From: a virus
Virus record (IMG/VR): IMGVR_UViG_3300048690_000048
Location: 1-37,914 of that record
Reading direction: 5' to 3' (one strand)
Length of the DNA: 37,914 bases
Shown: piece by piece, positions 2,631 to 35,193 of the stretch
Layout: each line of letters starts with the position of its first letter
Position numbering within the stretch: the first letter of the stretch is position 1
Made by a program: the position numbers and the translations under genes
Notes under the pieces: generated by a model
The model's input: the letters and a program-made list of their open reading frames with translations, nothing else
What the model was told of the DNA's origin: nothing
Databases searched by the model: none

Positions 2631-2827
2631 CACACACAAAAACTAACGGATGTGGCGGAAATTGCAACCAAGGCAGACAATGCGACTGCTGTCCAAACGC
2701 ATACCGCAAGAACTTCGATCACTTTGGTAATCCAATCGAACAAGAGCCGCCATTCTTGCTAACCGACTTGATCATCATTGCCATAGCTGTAATTGGTACG
2801 GCTGTATTGTTGGCGGGGGTAGTGTGA
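2627..2827 (+). CDS. small Cys-rich membrane protein
   Basis: 66 residues, starting at the ATG (2627) that overlaps the upstream stop as ATGA; an in-frame start at 2606 is possible but less likely. A cytoplasmic Cys cluster (NGCGGNCNQGRQCDCCPNA, residues 8-26) is followed by a hydrophilic linker and one hydrophobic segment (about 45-65, LLTDLIIIAIAVIGTAVLLAG). The layout matches the protein at 31399-31614, which also has a short Cys-rich head and one C-terminal membrane span. Cys spacing suggests metal binding. Role unknown. Confidence 0.7.
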   Translation: MTHTKTNGCGGNCNQGRQCDCCPNAYRKNFDHFGNPIEQEPPFLLTDLIIIAIAVIGTAVLLAGVV

Positions 2828-3561
2828 TTCACTATCACGGATCACCAATAACACCCGCGTCAGCTGCTGCCAAAGTTCTTGCAGGTCGCCATTCGTTCGT
2901 GTCATTTGCAAATCCCGAACAGTTGCCAATAGCGATTGAAGTGTGCCAGTCGTTTGCATTGGATAACGGCGCATTCTCTGCCTGGATGAGTGGAAACCCA
3001 GTAACGGATTGGACACCTTTTTATCAGTGGGTGGCTAAGTACATGAACACACCGAACTTTGATTTTTTCGTTATCCCTGACGTAATCGATGGTGACGAAA
3101 AAGCAAACGATTCACTTCTTAGGGACTGCCCACTTCCTAAACACATGGCTGCACCTGTTTGGCACATGCACGAAACGACTTCACGCCTTCAATGGATGGC
3201 TAGAAATTACCCACGGGTTTGCATTGGGTCGTCCGGTGAGTTTTCAATGGTCGGTACACCTAAGTGGTGGGAGAGAATCAATGTTGCATTGGCTTCTATC
3301 GTTGACGCAAATGGCCAGCCGATCTGCAAACTGCATGGGCTTCGTATGCTTAACCCCGAAGTATTCACACGCATTCCTTTCGCGTCAGCTGATAGCACGA
3401 TGGTAGGAAGAAACGTGGGGATGGATGGCGCATGGAAAGGAACATATATGCCGCCAGACAAGGACTGGAGGGCGCAAGTTCTTGCTGCCCGTATCGAATC
3501 ACACAACTCAGCAAATTGCTGGACAAATCAACCACAACAGGAGTCACTATGCCTTTTTTAA
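2824..3561 (+). CDS. DpdA-like tRNA/DNA-guanine transglycosylase family protein
   Basis: 245 residues from a GTG coupled to the upstream stop (GTGA). The order of motifs fits the TGT/DpdA TIM-barrel family, which exchanges guanine for a 7-deazaguanine base: LDNGAFSAW (46-54, first catalytic Asp47, compare DSGGFQ in TGT), VIPDVIDG (83-90), GSSGEFS (135-141), KLHGLRML (169-176) and SADSTMVGRN (188-197, candidate nucleophile Asp190, compare the FD...SGRNG segment of TGT). It is much shorter than bacterial TGT (about 380 aa), and the TGT zinc site (CxCxxC) is absent. The next gene encodes a preQ0-type transporter. A role in modifying phage DNA to resist restriction is inferred from that pairing; a tRNA-directed role is possible. 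Confidence 0.7.
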   Translation: MIHYHGSPITPASAAAKVLAGRHSFVSFANPEQLPIAIEVCQSFALDNGAFSAWMSGNPVTDWTPFYQWVAKYMNTPNFDFFVIPDVIDGDEKANDSLLRDCPLPKHMAAPVWHMHETTSRLQWMARNYPRVCIGSSGEFSMVGTPKWWERINVALASIVDANGQPICKLHGLRMLNPEVFTRIPFASADSTMVGRNVGMDGAWKGTYMPPDKDWRAQVLAARIESHNSANCWTNQPQQESLCLF

Positions 3562-8879: not shown

Positions 8880-9380
8880 TCACTTCAGCGATCTTGCAAT
8901 GGTATCGTCCTTGTTTCTTGACGAACTACTGGAACCAAACCAATAACTGACACAGGCCATCCACGCGGTGCCCAAGCTGCCCAACATGACCAATAGAGGT
9001 TCGCTACTCTTGTACGATTCAGACATCATGAAGGCTAATATCCCAAAGAACCCCACCGTGATCAAGTAAGTTAGTACAGCGGGGACTGTTGACCCCGTAG
9101 ACACATGCATTTCACGCGCGCTCTTCCTATCATCTAAGGCCAATTGTTCGCGCTTAATCTCGTTATCATCCATCCACTTTTTGAACTCGATCTCTGCCAA
9201 CTTTACTTGCGCTACTTGGTCTGGTGTGAGTTTGTCCGCAGTCATAGCCTCGCTAACGGCTTTAACCGTCTTTTCAGGAACGCCTAGCTTATCGGCAATG
9301 AAAGACGCTGCAATGCCACCGAATGGGCCTAAAAAAGCAGTTCCTAAGAGTGGTGCAAGTTTTGCCAGTAGTTCATTCAT
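8880..9380 (-). CDS. holin, GTA_holin_3TM type
   Basis: 166 residues. A hydrophobic N-terminal helix (about 7-30, LAPLLGTAFLGPFGGIAASF), a charged middle (50-85, AEIEFKKWMDDNEIKREQLA) and two membrane spans (about 98-118, PAVLTYLITVGFFGILAFMM; 127-148, LLVMLGSLGTAWMACVSYWF) ending FGSSSSSRNK fit the three-span holin family of gene-transfer agents and podoviruses. It would permeabilise the inner membrane to release the endolysin, which is encoded just upstream (ATGA overlap). Last gene of the late strand. Confidence 0.8.
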   Translation of the reverse strand: MNELLAKLAPLLGTAFLGPFGGIAASFIADKLGVPEKTVKAVSEAMTADKLTPDQVAQVKLAEIEFKKWMDDNEIKREQLALDDRKSAREMHVSTGSTVPAVLTYLITVGFFGILAFMMSESYKSSEPLLVMLGSLGTAWMACVSYWFGSSSSSRNKDDTIARSLK

Positions 9381-9817
9381 GCGTAAGCCCTCGCCCCATG
9401 TTCATCAATAACTAGAGCCTGCTTTTTGTTAGCATCGCTAAAAGAAATATGCACCCAGCCGCCGCCATTAGATGCAAACTCACTTATCAATTGGTCGTAG
9501 TCAATATCGCTATCAATGATGGCCTTGACAATCTGGTCAACACTTCCAAACGTAGGGCAAGTAAAGTCCACCGCCTCGGCTTTGACGTGTTGACTGGTGT
9601 TCTTAGAACCTACAGCAGCATTAAGAGACAAGCAGCGATAACCGCTACTAATATGGATTGGATTAGAACGAAGGCGCAGTCTAACCTGCTCAAGTCCGGC
9701 TGCTGTTCTTTTCGCAGTTTCATAAAGTTCTATCGGTAAGTCGTTGTTGATGCCAAGCCTCCCAGCCGTTTGAGACTGGGTGAACTCTGCGACGGTGAAG
9801 TGGGGTGAAAGGTTCAT
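9377..9817 (-). CDS. endolysin, peptidase M15A (D-Ala-D-Ala carboxypeptidase-like)
   Basis: 146 residues, the usual length. SGYR (58-61), SQHVKAEAVDF with zinc ligands His77 and Asp84, a candidate catalytic Glu113 (LISEF) and WVHISF with zinc ligand His123 are the M15 metallopeptidase pattern. These enzymes cut the peptide stems of murein. No signal peptide, so it needs the neighbouring holin. Coupled to both neighbours. Confidence 0.88.
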   Translation of the reverse strand: MNLSPHFTVAEFTQSQTAGRLGINNDLPIELYETAKRTAAGLEQVRLRLRSNPIHISSGYRCLSLNAAVGSKNTSQHVKAEAVDFTCPTFGSVDQIVKAIIDSDIDYDQLISEFASNGGGWVHISFSDANKKQALVIDEHGARAYA

Positions 9818-10365: not shown

Positions 10366-11463
10366 TTAGCGGAGTTCTGTCCAGCCGTTCAAAGTAGCCC
10401 CAGTAATACTGTAACTTCCACCTACAGGAACAATACCAGTCACACAGGCTATTGAAGATGTTGCGGTATTAACTGCTGAGTTACAAACCTGCACCCCATT
10501 CACATTTAATATAAGCTGAGGTGCAGCCACTGAAATCGTTTGTGCAGTCACAAAAATAGGTTTTCCTGTCGTGTTGTAGTATGTGGTAGATAGGGAACGG
10601 GACGGTGTTGTAATGGTCTGCCCATACCCAAGCGACGACATTGCCGCGAGAGCCTGCCCTCCAACACCCTGCACCGTACTTGGTGCCGTAGCCCATGTGC
10701 CTGCTGTGGCTTGTGTGGATTCGATGTAACCCATCACACGGTAGGCCACTGAGGTTCGTGCTGTTGTGCTGTAGACTACGCTGGCAGAGGTTGCCGATGC
10801 GCTGATTGCTGTCGTGGAGATTAGCCCTGTCTCAGTCAGGTCGTTACCACCTGCGATGTTCACCACTGCCAGTTCAATCGTCCCTGCGTTATTCAGAGCA
10901 AGAACGACAATGCGAGATTGCTGCGCTGAGACTGTGCCAAGCGTTGCAGAGGACGGGACTACGATATCAGCCGGGGTTCCCGATACAGTCGTCGCTGTTC
11001 CAGTTCCTAATGTCGTGCTTCTAAAATCTAAAGCCAATGCAGAGGCGCTAATCGTAAGCGCATTAGCCGCAACTGATGCCGTGATTGATTGTATTTTGCT
11101 AGATACACCAGCCGTTGATCCTGTGCCACCTTGAGATTGTGATAAAGGTGTAGTTAGCCCTGAAAGCGAAGTAATATCGCTGTTAGCGCCCGAAGCCGCA
11201 GCTCCTAAACTAGCGAGCGTTGGCAATTGTTCAAACCTTAGAGCATCGCCATTCGATGTTGCCGCTGCCAATCCAGTCAATTTGAACCCACCCATAGGGA
11301 TATTGGCAGTTGGCACTGTTTGCCCATCTTTTGCAAGCGAACCAGTCAAAGCTGTGGCAATATCCGAAAGAGTATTATTTGCCCAATTTGAACTTATAGT
11401 CGAACCACTTACTACTGGATTACCAGCCGGAAGTGAATATGTGCCTGAACCGTTACGTGCCAT
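10366..11463 (-). CDS. tail fibre protein
   Basis: 365 residues. The N-terminal part (about 1-90, MARNGSGTYSLPAGNPVVSG and WANNTLSDIATALTGSLAKD) resembles the virion-attachment end common to phage fibres. It is followed by SLGAAASGANSDITSL and SQSQGGTGSTAG, hallmark fibre motifs, and then a beta-rich, Thr/Ser/Ala-rich C-terminal domain likely to bind the host surface. AAGGATTAAAAA precedes the ATG. Confidence 0.8.
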   Translation of the reverse strand: MARNGSGTYSLPAGNPVVSGSTISSNWANNTLSDIATALTGSLAKDGQTVPTANIPMGGFKLTGLAAATSNGDALRFEQLPTLASLGAAASGANSDITSLSGLTTPLSQSQGGTGSTAGVSSKIQSITASVAANALTISASALALDFRSTTLGTGTATTVSGTPADIVVPSSATLGTVSAQQSRIVVLALNNAGTIELAVVNIAGGNDLTETGLISTTAISASATSASVVYSTTARTSVAYRVMGYIESTQATAGTWATAPSTVQGVGGQALAAMSSLGYGQTITTPSRSLSTTYYNTTGKPIFVTAQTISVAAPQLILNVNGVQVCNSAVNTATSSIACVTGIVPVGGSYSITGATLNGWTELR

Positions 11464-11479
11464 TTTTTAATCCTTATCT

Positions 11480-11644
11480 ATGACAGAAAATACATCATTG
11501 ATGATTGCAATTCTAATCAAGCCATTGGCAATAGCTTTGATACTTGCGGTTTTAGTTTGCATTCGGTTTGCAGTCATTCGGTATTTTCCTAATGGACTTC
11601 TTAAGAATCTACTGTTGAGAAACGTAGGCAGCAGGCAGCGATAA
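11480..11644 (+). CDS. small membrane protein encoded opposite to the late operon
   Basis: 54 codons on the plus strand in the gap between the fibre and ejection-protein genes, overlapping the end of the latter by 36 bases. The protein has one hydrophobic span (about 8-30, MIAILIKPLAIALILAVLVC) followed by a basic, Leu-rich tail (RYFPNGLLKNLLLRN). This layout, including KPL.., a P.G.LK.LLLR end and a single span, resembles small phage inner-membrane proteins. No good Shine-Dalgarno is visible. The coding look is convincing, the expression unknown. Confidence 0.5.
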   Translation: MTENTSLMIAILIKPLAIALILAVLVCIRFAVIRYFPNGLLKNLLLRNVGSRQR

Positions 11645-13393
11645 CACTACGGACTGAGGCAATGCGCGGATAATTTGCTGTCTTTGCGATGGTTCTACCC
11701 GTGCAAGTTCTTTCTCAATTAACTTAGCTACCTGTTGCGGGTTATTTGCCAACATATCGTCAAGCTGGCCTAGCATTTGCGCTTTGACCTTATCGCCTAC
11801 CACTGACCCGGCCAAAGATACGCCTTTTCCAACAAAACCAACGCCTGGCAAATTACTAGCCAGTTCCAATATTTTGGATGTGAATGGGGCCTCTTGTGCG
11901 AAGTGTTGCGCCAGCATATCTCCCTGAGTGAATCTGCGATGCGTGGCGGAATTATTCCCGCTTCCACGCTTCAAAGCCTCTGCAATCCTGCTTGCGTCTG
12001 ATGTAACGCCTTGAACGGTTCCCATTTGTTCGGGTGACAAAATAGAACCCATCTTTGCACCAGAGAAACCCGTAGCACGTTGTGCTATTTGGTCAGGGTT
12101 TCGCATGGCAGTTGCCAAGCTGGAATAGTTCAAACTTGCGGGAACATCGCCAGCTGTTGCAGGTATCAGCTTATTGGCTAGGGATTGGCCGACTTCCATT
12201 TGATTGACCGGGCCGCTCATTGTCTTAAATGTTTCACGGGCTGTGTTGTATGCGGGGCTTATTTCCCCCATGCCTGCAATCAAATCATCCTGTAAACCTT
12301 GATATGCCCTAGATAGTTCTTTGTCACCCGAAGTTACCGCCTGGCCAATCTTGCTATCAATGGCCTTTTTCACCCAATGCATGCCTTGGATAGCGGATTC
12401 GTTATCCATATTAACGCCGCTGATTTTTGCCAGTTCTTTTGCCCGGTTCAAAATGTCCTCTGGTACGCGCTGTTGAAATGCTGCGATATTGGCTTGAGCC
12501 TCTGGTGCCAAAGATGCCATATCAACGCCTTGAGTACGCGCAAGGCCGTAGAGTTTTTCAGCAGTATCGCCACGGGCGGTTTTTGCAGCGCCCAATGCTT
12601 CAGGGCTTCCAGCGATACCCCTCAAAGCATCCGCAAGGGCTGTGCGGTTTGTTTGCCCCATACGCGCCAATTCACCAGAAGGCAAAGCGGATGTAATCGC
12701 GTCTTCAAGGGCTGATAATCCTTCACTCGTACCGACCTGCCCCGCCGACAATCTCACGCCGGGAGTCGCTGCGCCTTGGCTTCTAAGGGCTTTTGCAATC
12801 TCTGCCGCCTTATCACCCGCGCTGCGTTTCAATGCCCCGCCGATAATGCGCTCTTGCCCTGCTAACGGGTCGTATAGTGCTGCCTTTGCGGTTTTCAAGC
12901 CTCCTACAATCGCAGGCAATGCACCACCAGCCACTCCGCCTAGGGCCATGTTTTGCAGCCTGCTTTCATCTTTCAGCGTTGGTTGCAATGCTGCCATACC
13001 AGCGCCGATAGCCGCACCGCCTAAAACAGTGTTAACGCCTGGAATTGCCGCCGTAGGTAGTGCAGTGATTACATTTCCGGCAATGTTGCCAGCCATGCCA
13101 GCGCCCGTATTCATTAGGGCTTCGTCACGCTTACGAGATTCAGCAACGTCTTGATCTGAAACCAAACCAAGCATCTGACCCGCACCGCGCCCAATGTCAT
13201 ACACGGCCTTACCTGCTCCCGCCGCGAACTTGTCAAACCCGCTCATACCCTCGGTTGGGTCTGGGGTTTTTTCGGTGTGTGGAGCCTTCCACTGGCTTTG
13301 CGCGTAGGAAAGAACCTGCTCCTGCGTAGCGCCTTCGGGAGCGGTAATCTCGAAAGTCTTACCGTCAGGTGATGTGATGCGGTACTTTGGCAT
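11609..13393 (-). CDS. ejection (internal virion) protein with Ala/Gly-rich membrane-like region
   Basis: 594 residues. It begins with a short beta domain (about 1-35, YRITSPDGKTFEITAPEGAT) found at the start of many phage ejection proteins, then a Gly/Ala-rich stretch with glycine-zipper character (about 58-180), suited to inserting into the host envelope, and a long helical remainder. Position after the tail adaptors and beside two other internal proteins fits a P22 gp16/gp20-like DNA-ejection set. Confidence 0.7.
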   Translation of the reverse strand: MPKYRITSPDGKTFEITAPEGATQEQVLSYAQSQWKAPHTEKTPDPTEGMSGFDKFAAGAGKAVYDIGRGAGQMLGLVSDQDVAESRKRDEALMNTGAGMAGNIAGNVITALPTAAIPGVNTVLGGAAIGAGMAALQPTLKDESRLQNMALGGVAGGALPAIVGGLKTAKAALYDPLAGQERIIGGALKRSAGDKAAEIAKALRSQGAATPGVRLSAGQVGTSEGLSALEDAITSALPSGELARMGQTNRTALADALRGIAGSPEALGAAKTARGDTAEKLYGLARTQGVDMASLAPEAQANIAAFQQRVPEDILNRAKELAKISGVNMDNESAIQGMHWVKKAIDSKIGQAVTSGDKELSRAYQGLQDDLIAGMGEISPAYNTARETFKTMSGPVNQMEVGQSLANKLIPATAGDVPASLNYSSLATAMRNPDQIAQRATGFSGAKMGSILSPEQMGTVQGVTSDASRIAEALKRGSGNNSATHRRFTQGDMLAQHFAQEAPFTSKILELASNLPGVGFVGKGVSLAGSVVGDKVKAQMLGQLDDMLANNPQQVAKLIEKELARVEPSQRQQIIRALPQSVVLSLPAAYVSQQ

Positions 13394-33547: not shown

Positions 33548-34427
33548 TAGCTATCCCTAGTTTTGCTGGCAATGAATCAAAAAACGTATTCGGGTCTATC
33601 CTGCTTGCGCCTGGATTGCTTGCTGCAATAGATGGTGCTGCAACTTGATATCTCTCGCGCATTGATCTCTGATATGGCGTTTCGCTTGGTTGTTGAACCT
33701 TTGATGATGGCTTTGCATTCCTGCACCAGTTACGCCATGTTGCCGGCCAATCTAGCTTTACGCCCTTTTGTCCAGGTTGTGAATTCCAGTAGTCCCGAAA
33801 CTTGCTTGCCTCTTCCAATGTGTTGGCTATTCCTTGATCAATAGCAAATTGAAAATCAGGTTCAAAGTCTTGAGGCAAGCGGGAACCGCGTGCTGTCTTT
33901 GTCTTCTCTATCTTTGGTAACGGTAACGGTAACGGTATTGGAGACGGAGACGGAGACGGAGACGGAGACGGGGCATCCGCCTCGCATCCGCCTCGCATGC
34001 GGTCCGTGTGCGGTTCGGATGCGCCTCGCATGCGGTCCGCATAATCTGGCATGCGGTTCGTAGCTTCATTGCGTCCATATCGCTTGCATAAAGCTGCAAA
34101 TCGTGACGCTTCGGACCTATCTTTTGCACCAGCCGCCCAGGGGTTATGCTCTGACCAATCGTGAATAGAAAGCTGGTTTTCCGCACCATCCAAAAAACCA
34201 ACGTCGACCATTGCAGAGACAAAAGCGCCATGTTCACCAGTCCAATCGACTGACAGTTCTATGTCTTCGTTTGATAGTCCAGACAAGTCACCGTCGCTTC
34301 GATTGGCAGCCGACCATATAAACAAGTATATGCATGCCAATGGACCAGCGTGCCCCAATCGCCTGAGTAGCTTCTTGGTCTTTGGGTGACCAGGTAGCCC
34401 GGTTGATATGCGAGCATCCTTTGTCAT
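33540..34427 (-). CDS. phage replication initiator, O-like, with repeat-rich linker
   Basis: 295 residues from the ATG (34427) overlapping the Rha stop (ATGA). The N-terminal half (MTKDARISTGLPGHPKTKKL, then LACIYLFIWSAANRSDGDLS) has the winged-helix pattern of O-like initiators that bind the origin. The middle (about 135-175) is repetitive: DRMRG twice, then a (Pro-Ser)5-ProIle-(Pro-Leu)3 run. The C-terminal part (about 190-250, with FRDYWNSQPGQKGVKLDWPA, WRNWCRN) is the DnaT-like domain of replication proteins. As in lambda, the origin may lie in the repeat part of the gene. Confidence 0.75.
   Translation of the reverse strand: MTKDARISTGLPGHPKTKKLLRRLGHAGPLACIYLFIWSAANRSDGDLSGLSNEDIELSVDWTGEHGAFVSAMVDVGFLDGAENQLSIHDWSEHNPWAAGAKDRSEASRFAALCKRYGRNEATNRMPDYADRMRGASEPHTDRMRGGCEADAPSPSPSPSPSPIPLPLPLPKIEKTKTARGSRLPQDFEPDFQFAIDQGIANTLEEASKFRDYWNSQPGQKGVKLDWPATWRNWCRNAKPSSKVQQPSETPYQRSMRERYQVAAPSIAASNPGASRIDPNTFFDSLPAKLGIANG
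33916..34060. repeat. hexamer and iteron-like repeats within the O-like gene (candidate origin)
   Basis: On the plus strand: GGTAAC three times (33916-33933), GGTATT, GGAGAC five times (33940-33969); then GCATCCGCCTC twice (33973-33994) and GCATGCGG(T/T)(C/T)CG three times (33995-34006, 34028-34039, 34049-34060). The second group is iteron-like. The hexamers keep the reading frame. Origin function is inferred from lambda, whose iterons are in gene O. Confidence 0.5.
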
Positions 34428-35074
34428 TTTGCAGTCCACAGCTTCGTGATTTCTAGCTGCCCGAGCGGTGTAATCAGACATTGATGGAACTCGTGCCCGT
34501 TTTTTACGTCAGAAACAACGTTAAACCACTCAGAATAGCCAGCTTTAGGCAAATCAGCATTGAGCCACTTCACGCCTCCTTCACGCAAAAACTGATTTAG
34601 TTTGATGGCGGTAGTGCCTAATTGTTTTGCAATCAGCGTCGTACTTACGTCTTGTTTGCGGTCTGCCAATATCTCGTATATTGCAACTTTAGGTGCTTGC
34701 TCAAGCAATAGCGCGTCTTTGGCTTCGATCTTCTCTGCTTGCTCTGCGGCAAGTCGCAAGGCTCCCGATAGCGTTGTGGGAACTTTGATTGCTTGTTTCG
34801 ACTCCAATTCCTGCCAACGCTTGATAATTGCAAATCGCATTGGAGCTGAGTATCCAGAAACTAACGTCAGTGTCAGGTCTTTATTTAGCACATATTCCGT
34901 TTGTAGTCGTCCTACTGAATCACGGTAGGTACATCCAAAAGTGGATACATCTTTTTCAAGCTGATCGAGCATGTTTTCAATGTCTCTCTTTACGTGCCCA
35001 TGCTCTTTTTGTGTGAATTCCGCTATCTCACGGCTCGACATCTTTTGCGAGTTGTCCATTGTTGCTATCTGCAT
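34424..35074 (-). CDS. Rha-family antirepressor with KilAC C-terminus
   Basis: 216 residues from the ATG at 35074 (GGAGTAACGAAA before it; a longer TTG version would lie in the leader RNA). N-terminal SSREIAEFTQKEHGHVKRDI, then TYRDSVGRLQTEYVLNKDLT, LTLVSGYSAPMRFAIIKRW is the Rha (Phage_pRha) domain. C-terminal VSTTLIAKQLGTTAIKLNQF, then LITPLGQLEITKLW is KilAC/ANT. Such proteins act as antirepressors or block host functions. A C4-like RNA lies directly upstream, as in P1/P7, and would keep it off. Confidence 0.88.
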   Translation of the reverse strand: MQIATMDNSQKMSSREIAEFTQKEHGHVKRDIENMLDQLEKDVSTFGCTYRDSVGRLQTEYVLNKDLTLTLVSGYSAPMRFAIIKRWQELESKQAIKVPTTLSGALRLAAEQAEKIEAKDALLLEQAPKVAIYEILADRKQDVSTTLIAKQLGTTAIKLNQFLREGGVKWLNADLPKAGYSEWFNVVSDVKNGHEFHQCLITPLGQLEITKLWTAK

Positions 35075-35086
35075 TTTCGTTACTCC

Positions 35087-35193
35087 AAAAAAAACCGCCT
35101 GCAACCCCGTGGAATCAGCACGGAACTACAGGCGGTAGGCCTTGAGAGCTTTGACTTTTTAACCCTCTGATTCAGGGAATGTCGAAACTCTCA
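35087..35193 (-). ncRNA. C4-like antisense RNA / leader with terminator before the antirepressor
   Basis: Read on the minus strand: outer stem GAGAGTTT/AAAGCTCTC (35192-35185 with 35152-35144, one bulge), enclosing CCCT-GAATCAG-AGGG (35177-35163); then ACCGCCTG/CAGGCGGT (35136-35129 with 35101-35094), enclosing CCGTG-CTGATTC-CACGG (35123-35107), then eight T. The two 7-base loops, GAATCAG and CTGATTC, are exact complements. The layout and the antirepressor downstream match the C4 RNA family of P1/P7-type phages. Confidence 0.75.

Follow-up and report, generated by a model that had tools for sequence, protein, structure and literature searches.

A conserved small gene for a predicted membrane protein, antisense to the late operon at the ejection/fibre junction of a viral genome and its relatives

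In phage P22, the sieA gene is found antisense between gene 16, from which 22 nt separate it, and the tailspike gene 9, and has its own annotated promoter. Its product, SieA, is an inner-membrane protein for superinfection exclusion, which prevents DNA injection by rival phages. It is 164 aa long, spans the membrane several times and bears the conserved motif FxRYPxEAxxFNK; it has been described from P22-like phages and from prophages of enteric bacteria (PMC10883804). The product of the HK97 moron gene 15 (gp15) is likewise a predicted inner-membrane superinfection-exclusion protein of a tailed phage, which is likened here by description alone, as HK97 is a long-tailed phage and gp15 is specific for long-tailed phages (PMC10883804). 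The olg1/gene 10 pair of Pseudomonas phage Fc02 comprises a small exclusion protein (7.9 kDa) and a gene that overlaps it on the opposite strand, one of the two being expressed in the lysogen and the other in the lytic cycle (PMC9936078). This pair, also likened by description alone, is situated in the repressor region, unlike the gene described below. A small gene inverted between a gene in the injection position and the fibre region is found in Sulfitobacter phage phiGT1 (gene 20, QLB38232.1), and genes likewise inverted at this junction are present in Rhizobium phage RHph_N2 (EVC05_015), Sulfitobacter phage NYA-2014a (SUFP_017), EBPR podovirus 2 (gp30) and Mx8 (p58-p60). In GenBank, phiGT1 gene 20 carries a remark on 'small inverted frames at this position in closely related phages', so that the geometry had already been noticed in this more distant group. 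A word search of the available text of two phiGT1 papers gave no discussion of inverted frames (PMC10386132, PMC7427195).

The window analysed here is the whole 37,914-nt stretch of the IMG/VR record IMGVR_UViG_3300048690_000048, which comes from a short-tailed phage. According to the first-pass annotation it contains a plus-strand frame of 54 codons in a 145-base gap flanked by minus-strand fibre and ejection genes, which is exact (gap 11464-11608; Table 1), as is its claim that the frame overlaps the end of the ejection gene. At the other side, the start of the small gene and the ATG of the fibre-like gene stand head to head, 16 nt apart. In the window and in its relatives the small gene thus has the position of sieA, antisense between ejection and fibre genes, although sieA follows gene 16 after a gap and the small gene overlaps the ejection gene instead.

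Table 1. Coordinates of the small gene, its parts and its neighbours in the window
Feature	Position	Strand	Remarks
Small membrane-protein gene (predicted)	11480..11644	+	54 aa, stop included; ATG at 11480, stop 11642-11644
Predicted membrane span, codons 10-28	11507..11563	+	hydropathy 2.85; within AlphaFold2 helix 3-35
Basic tail, codons 29-54	11564..11641	+	conserved P-x-G-x-x-K-x-x-L-L pattern
Tail-to-tail overlap of small gene and ejection gene	11609..11644		36 nt
Fibre-like gene, 365 aa, divergent neighbour	10366..11463	-	weak PHROG matches: virion structural and tail fibre families
Ejection (DNA transfer) protein gene, 594 aa, convergent neighbour	11609..13393	-	named from annotated relative and position
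Weak candidate -10 box TAATCC	11468..11473	+	6 nt before ATG; position of the TANNNT peak of the relatives
36-aa sense ORF opposite the small gene	11467..11577	-	shadow, not gene: register broken in 27/53; codon-position pattern

The name 'ejection' for the 594-aa protein rests on annotation and position, because a profile of ten ejection-protein relatives did not match P22 gp16 (probability 0.5%). A relative in phage DSL-LC05 (30% identical) is annotated 'putative DNA transfer protein'; another is encoded by Rhodoferax phage P26218 (30% identity over 97%) and a further one by a Manatee Spring podovirus. Elsewhere the window encodes NinB and NinG, an antirepressor with Rha and KilAC (ANT) domains (34424-35104, minus strand) and a 245-aa protein (2824-3561, plus strand) that matches the PHROG queuine tRNA-ribosyltransferase (E 1.7e-67) and might take part in base modification.

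The length of 54 codons is not above chance, since 218 ORFs of at least 50 aa were counted in the six frames of the window. If this count were all there was, the small frame could be taken for a chance open frame. That explanation is nevertheless extremely improbable, as the frame is conserved over 53 distinct sequences and the small protein by itself finds matches in bacterial genomes; it is the conservation in relatives that lifts the frame above chance. With the small protein as a query, three viral contigs were found, of which one equals the window over 6.1 kb and two encode a small protein that is 91% identical. Relatives were fetched through the ejection protein and their six-frame translations were scanned with a profile of 12 members. 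This yielded 84 hit records, from which 53 distinct loci were chosen by the sequence near the stop. Among the 82 records fetched via ejection-protein relatives, 60 contained a homologue and 22 did not. Eight of these 22 stop short of the ejection stop, which leaves 74 usable records. The antisense placement at the ejection/fibre junction is kept by homologues in 60 of the 74 and missing in 14, a count of records and not of independent lineages, some of the contigs being near-identical. In 51 of the 53 distinct relatives the small gene runs 7-114 nt into the ejection gene. Stops breaking the frame of the small gene itself were found in none of the 53 loci, partly by construction because hits were sought in open segments. 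The small gene thus survived the search for missing homologues and stop codons in related phages that had been proposed at the outset. In the remainder of the loci, the profile turned up no convincing further copy.

In the alignment, read by eye and with exceptions, the members share a hydrophobic span that has [KR]P and, after it, the pattern P-[DEN]-[GS]-x-[LIV]-K-x-x-L-[LF]. Four loci (L093, L096, L103 and L110) form a divergent subfamily with an ejection-gene overlap of 63-114 nt and a common C-terminal stretch like TDTETGRLAYKP. Loci L041 and L043 are examples of relatives from which the small gene is missing; there a 120-aa sense gene (MKSDAQQF...) occupies the junction, 1-364 nt past the ejection stop. 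In L013 and L040 this 120-aa gene and the small gene coexist, with start codons that overlap on opposite strands.

A tblastn of the 54 residues against phage genomes had been advised as a check. Run with these residues and six other members against a phage collection, this search found little, and the homologues came via the ejection-protein relatives instead. Only the matches in P26218 and in two Manatee Spring records were taken as real (E 0.02-0.6); the Arthrobacter and Enterobacter matches and some single ones were weak. Nipunavirus matches, located within a hypothetical gene next to one for a helicase, were taken as chance. A nucleotide search with 5 kb gave no match.

Bacterial genomes were searched with the small-protein alignment only. 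Matches were obtained in five of 395 genomes of one family and in two of 369 of its class, one genome being shared, which makes six distinct ones. In four of these (L118, L122, L123 and L124) the small gene is antisense and adjoins a match to the ejection profile. The geometry of L126 is similar: here the gene lies between a 498-aa ORF in the ejection position, which does not match the ejection profile, and a fibre-like ORF. Five of the six distinct matches were therefore antisense at an ejection/fibre-type junction; at the sixth, L121, no adjoining ejection gene was recognised. One of the six, L118, is the genome of L112, which had been met earlier via the ejection protein but was absent from the query alignment. 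In 67 genomes of the family of G002, a set that contained no positive control, the small protein found no match.

Coding was tested in 11 pairs, each locus being used once and only the region outside the ejection gene being considered. The pooled pN/pS of the antisense frame was 0.31, compared with 0.85 (sd 0.12) for random placement, and none of 300 placements was as low. Of the differences, 68 fell on codon position 1, 28 on position 2 and 113 on position 3. The closest pair, window/L001 and L002, has 6 counted differences (2 synonymous, 4 not) and is uninformative alone. The small frame is under purifying selection, which bears out the frame conservation for which a check had been advised, and it is almost certainly a real gene. 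It could be argued that the real gene is instead the 36-aa sense ORF of Table 1, with the antisense frame as its shadow. This ORF has an AGGA Shine-Dalgarno sequence before its ATG and a stop 3 nt ahead of the fibre ATG, the annotations of MW202557 and MW202655 include a sense ORF in the gap, and pN/pS in the sense register is also below random (0.46 versus 0.88). The last is expected, because the third positions are shared with the antisense frame, in which pN/pS is lower. In addition, stops interrupt the sense register in 27 of the 53 loci, and its position 1 is less variable than its position 2 (27 versus 66), which is the reverse of what a coding register should show. These data make the sense ORF a very improbable candidate for the real gene.

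In the two records just mentioned, MW202557 and MW202655, the antisense gene is not annotated; in MW202557 the deposited sense CDS of 135 bases (L031:2985-3119, minus strand) lies opposite it. The GenBank records of P26218 also leave the small gene unannotated. For this phage, only those ORFs on which two out of three gene finders agreed were kept, and the published text, as far as available, reports no transmembrane protein (PMC4657236). No description of the family was met in the literature searched, most subscription papers being outside this search. It appears, therefore, that a conserved and mostly unannotated gene family has been missed so far, probably because gene finders avoid frames opposite larger genes.

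The claim of the first-pass annotation that the protein has a membrane span followed by a basic tail agrees with the properties of the whole family. The most hydrophobic 19-mer of the 54-aa protein comprises residues 10-28 (mean Kyte-Doolittle hydropathy 2.85), and a value of at least 1.6 was reached in 52 of the 53 distinct members. In all 53, the charge after the span is more positive than before it. The positive side of a span is as a rule cytoplasmic (positive-inside rule), which suggests that the C-terminus of the small protein is in the cytoplasm. AlphaFold2 predicted one long helix from the single sequence, and from 39 aligned rows a helix of residues 3-35 plus a short helix 41-45 (mean pLDDT 77). 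Judged by hydropathy and charge, the small protein is very likely inserted in the membrane. In one 78-aa member (L061:6886-7119, minus strand), a further hydrophobic stretch is present at the C-terminus. Comparison of 44 members with PHROGs gave no family at E 0.01; Pfam and NCBIfam each gave one family matched by a single member (E 0.002 and 0.027), which were stray and weak, and with PADLOC one of 39 members weakly matched one family (2TM effector, E 0.016). By these profile searches, the members are not assignable to a Pfam, NCBIfam, PHROGs or PADLOC family.

Expression signals were counted in 50 loci, namely 45 of the 53 (eight near-identical ones being dropped) and five from the genome searches, with start codons set by the profile and not by the TANNNT box. 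TANNNT was present exactly 6 nt before the start codon in 11 of the 50, while offsets outside 5-7 had a mean of 0.46 and a maximum of 3. A spacing of 6 nt is that expected for transcription starting at the A of the ATG. This suggests that the mRNA is leaderless and made from the gene's own promoter; co-occurrence of TANNNT boxes and leaderless genes is described for other bacteria in the literature. The peak does not include the clade of the window, where the TAATCC at this position is unconvincing because it is also the complement of the Shine-Dalgarno sequence of the fibre gene. A consensus scan of the window gave no convincing plus-strand promoter at the small gene, and its promoter and terminator counts were no higher than in shuffles; one short inverted repeat near the gene has no evident use. 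The absence of the small gene from 14 of the 74 usable records is a trait of a moron. For the other trait of a moron, an own promoter, the TANNNT box in 11 of 50 loci is a candidate, with none convincing in the window.

On the sense strand, a terminator-like hairpin occurs no more than 80 nt upstream of the small gene in 14 of the 50 loci (shuffled mean 0.14), the window being without a clear one. Such a hairpin would end the late unit past the small gene, so that the 3' part of the late RNA would be complementary to the whole small mRNA. These features could also mean that the antisense pairing with the late mRNA is itself the function, as an RNA or as part of a type-I-toxin-like pair, and that the peptide is secondary: the late transcript covers the whole coding region on the opposite strand, and in the 14 loci the hairpin directly follows on the sense strand. 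However, conservation is at the protein level, with codon position 2 the most conserved and pN/pS low, and this makes a primary RNA role quite unlikely. We consider it fairly probable that the small gene is expressed independently of the late operon. In many relatives this would probably be from a leaderless mRNA initiated at an own -10 element that abuts the start codon. In the window, the weak box would perhaps drive expression, or else plus-strand transcription that arrives from the converging early genes. Late transcription across the junction would then produce RNA complementary to the whole small mRNA, which should shut the small gene off.

As to its function, the small gene would define a new family of about 45-80 aa, mostly single-span inner-membrane proteins encoded opposite the late operon. 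The protein of the window has one span in 54 aa, in contrast to the larger SieA with its several spans. An hhalign comparison of the family with P22 SieA, which is of type A, detected no similarity (probability 0.3%), and when the P22 region was scanned with the family profile, a stray match (E 0.008) outside sieA was all that appeared. The small protein is accordingly not classed as SieA, because only place and membrane character are common to the two and no sequence similarity is detectable. By analogy in place, size and membrane nature, exclusion is the most likely function, though held tentatively: in the inner membrane of the infected or lysogenic cell, the small protein would interfere with the conduit through which related phages eject their DNA on arrival. 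Taken as a whole, an independently expressed small inner-membrane protein that hinders the DNA entry of related phages is our best reading, to which we give nearly even chances.

The small gene is not simply a lysogen gene, because a tyrosine integrase (PF00589) was found in only 11 of the 28 records searched, the window and 16 of the 27 others being without a match. P26218 too has no PF00589 match and is reported as lytic (PMC4657236). Presence in phages without a detected integrase could also point to a small membrane protein that serves to take over the host early or to adjust the envelope, and not to exclude phages. The small gene is on the same strand as the early genes of the window, which occupy the plus strand as far as about 8.7 kb, in convergent orientation to the late operon. 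On the other hand, it lies outside the early cluster and stays attached to the ejection gene. In a comparison of 40 loci, the similarity of the small protein tracked that of the ejection protein, both in its first 250 aa (rho 0.51) and in its last 200 aa (0.26), more than that of the fibre N-terminus (0.17). A take-over role is therefore considered unlikely, if less so than the RNA role. Given the N-terminus, the partial correlation with the ejection C-terminus was nil (0.011). This pattern of similarity fits a small gene that travels with the ejection gene and does not favour a C-terminal target. As the SieA-escape changes of P22 are C-terminal (PMC10883804), the N-terminal tracking also counts against a SieA-like target.

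A small, hydrophobic protein with a basic tail might also be an accessory lysis protein made late, i.e. a holin, antiholin or pinholin-like protein. Yet the small gene is antisense to late transcription, an endolysin-like gene (9377-9817) and its neighbours are already present on the late strand downstream of the fibre gene, and no lysis family was matched in PHROGs, Pfam or NCBIfam. This makes a lysis function improbable.

The exclusion reading can be extended to the inverted junction genes of the more distant phages. None of six annotated ones (from phiGT1, Rhizobium, EBPR, NYA-2014a and Mx8 without p59) matches the family profile, and the 71-aa product of phiGT1 gene 20 has two hydrophobic stretches, whereas the protein of the window has one span. 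The junction genes of EBPR podovirus 2 (L132:15823-16152), NYA-2014a (L134:15591-15905) and Mx8 (L135:15457-16753), all on the minus strand, are unrelated small antisense genes, and several of them appear lipoprotein-like by eye. The antisense position between ejection and fibre genes could be a slot for a small membrane exclusion gene in many short-tailed phages, with the present family as an old occupant, but both parts taken together are rather doubtful. The occupant would be unrelated in sequence to SieA and would be started from a leaderless promoter situated where the late unit ends. Late transcription would silence it, and its action would be aimed at the conduit formed by the product of the neighbouring ejection gene.

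If the small protein is SieA-like in action, the hindrance of DNA entry by a membrane protein whose gene adjoins that of its target would be widespread practice among short-tailed phages and not a speciality of P22. With about 50 residues, the protein would then be small enough for a direct study of its contact with the ejection conduit.
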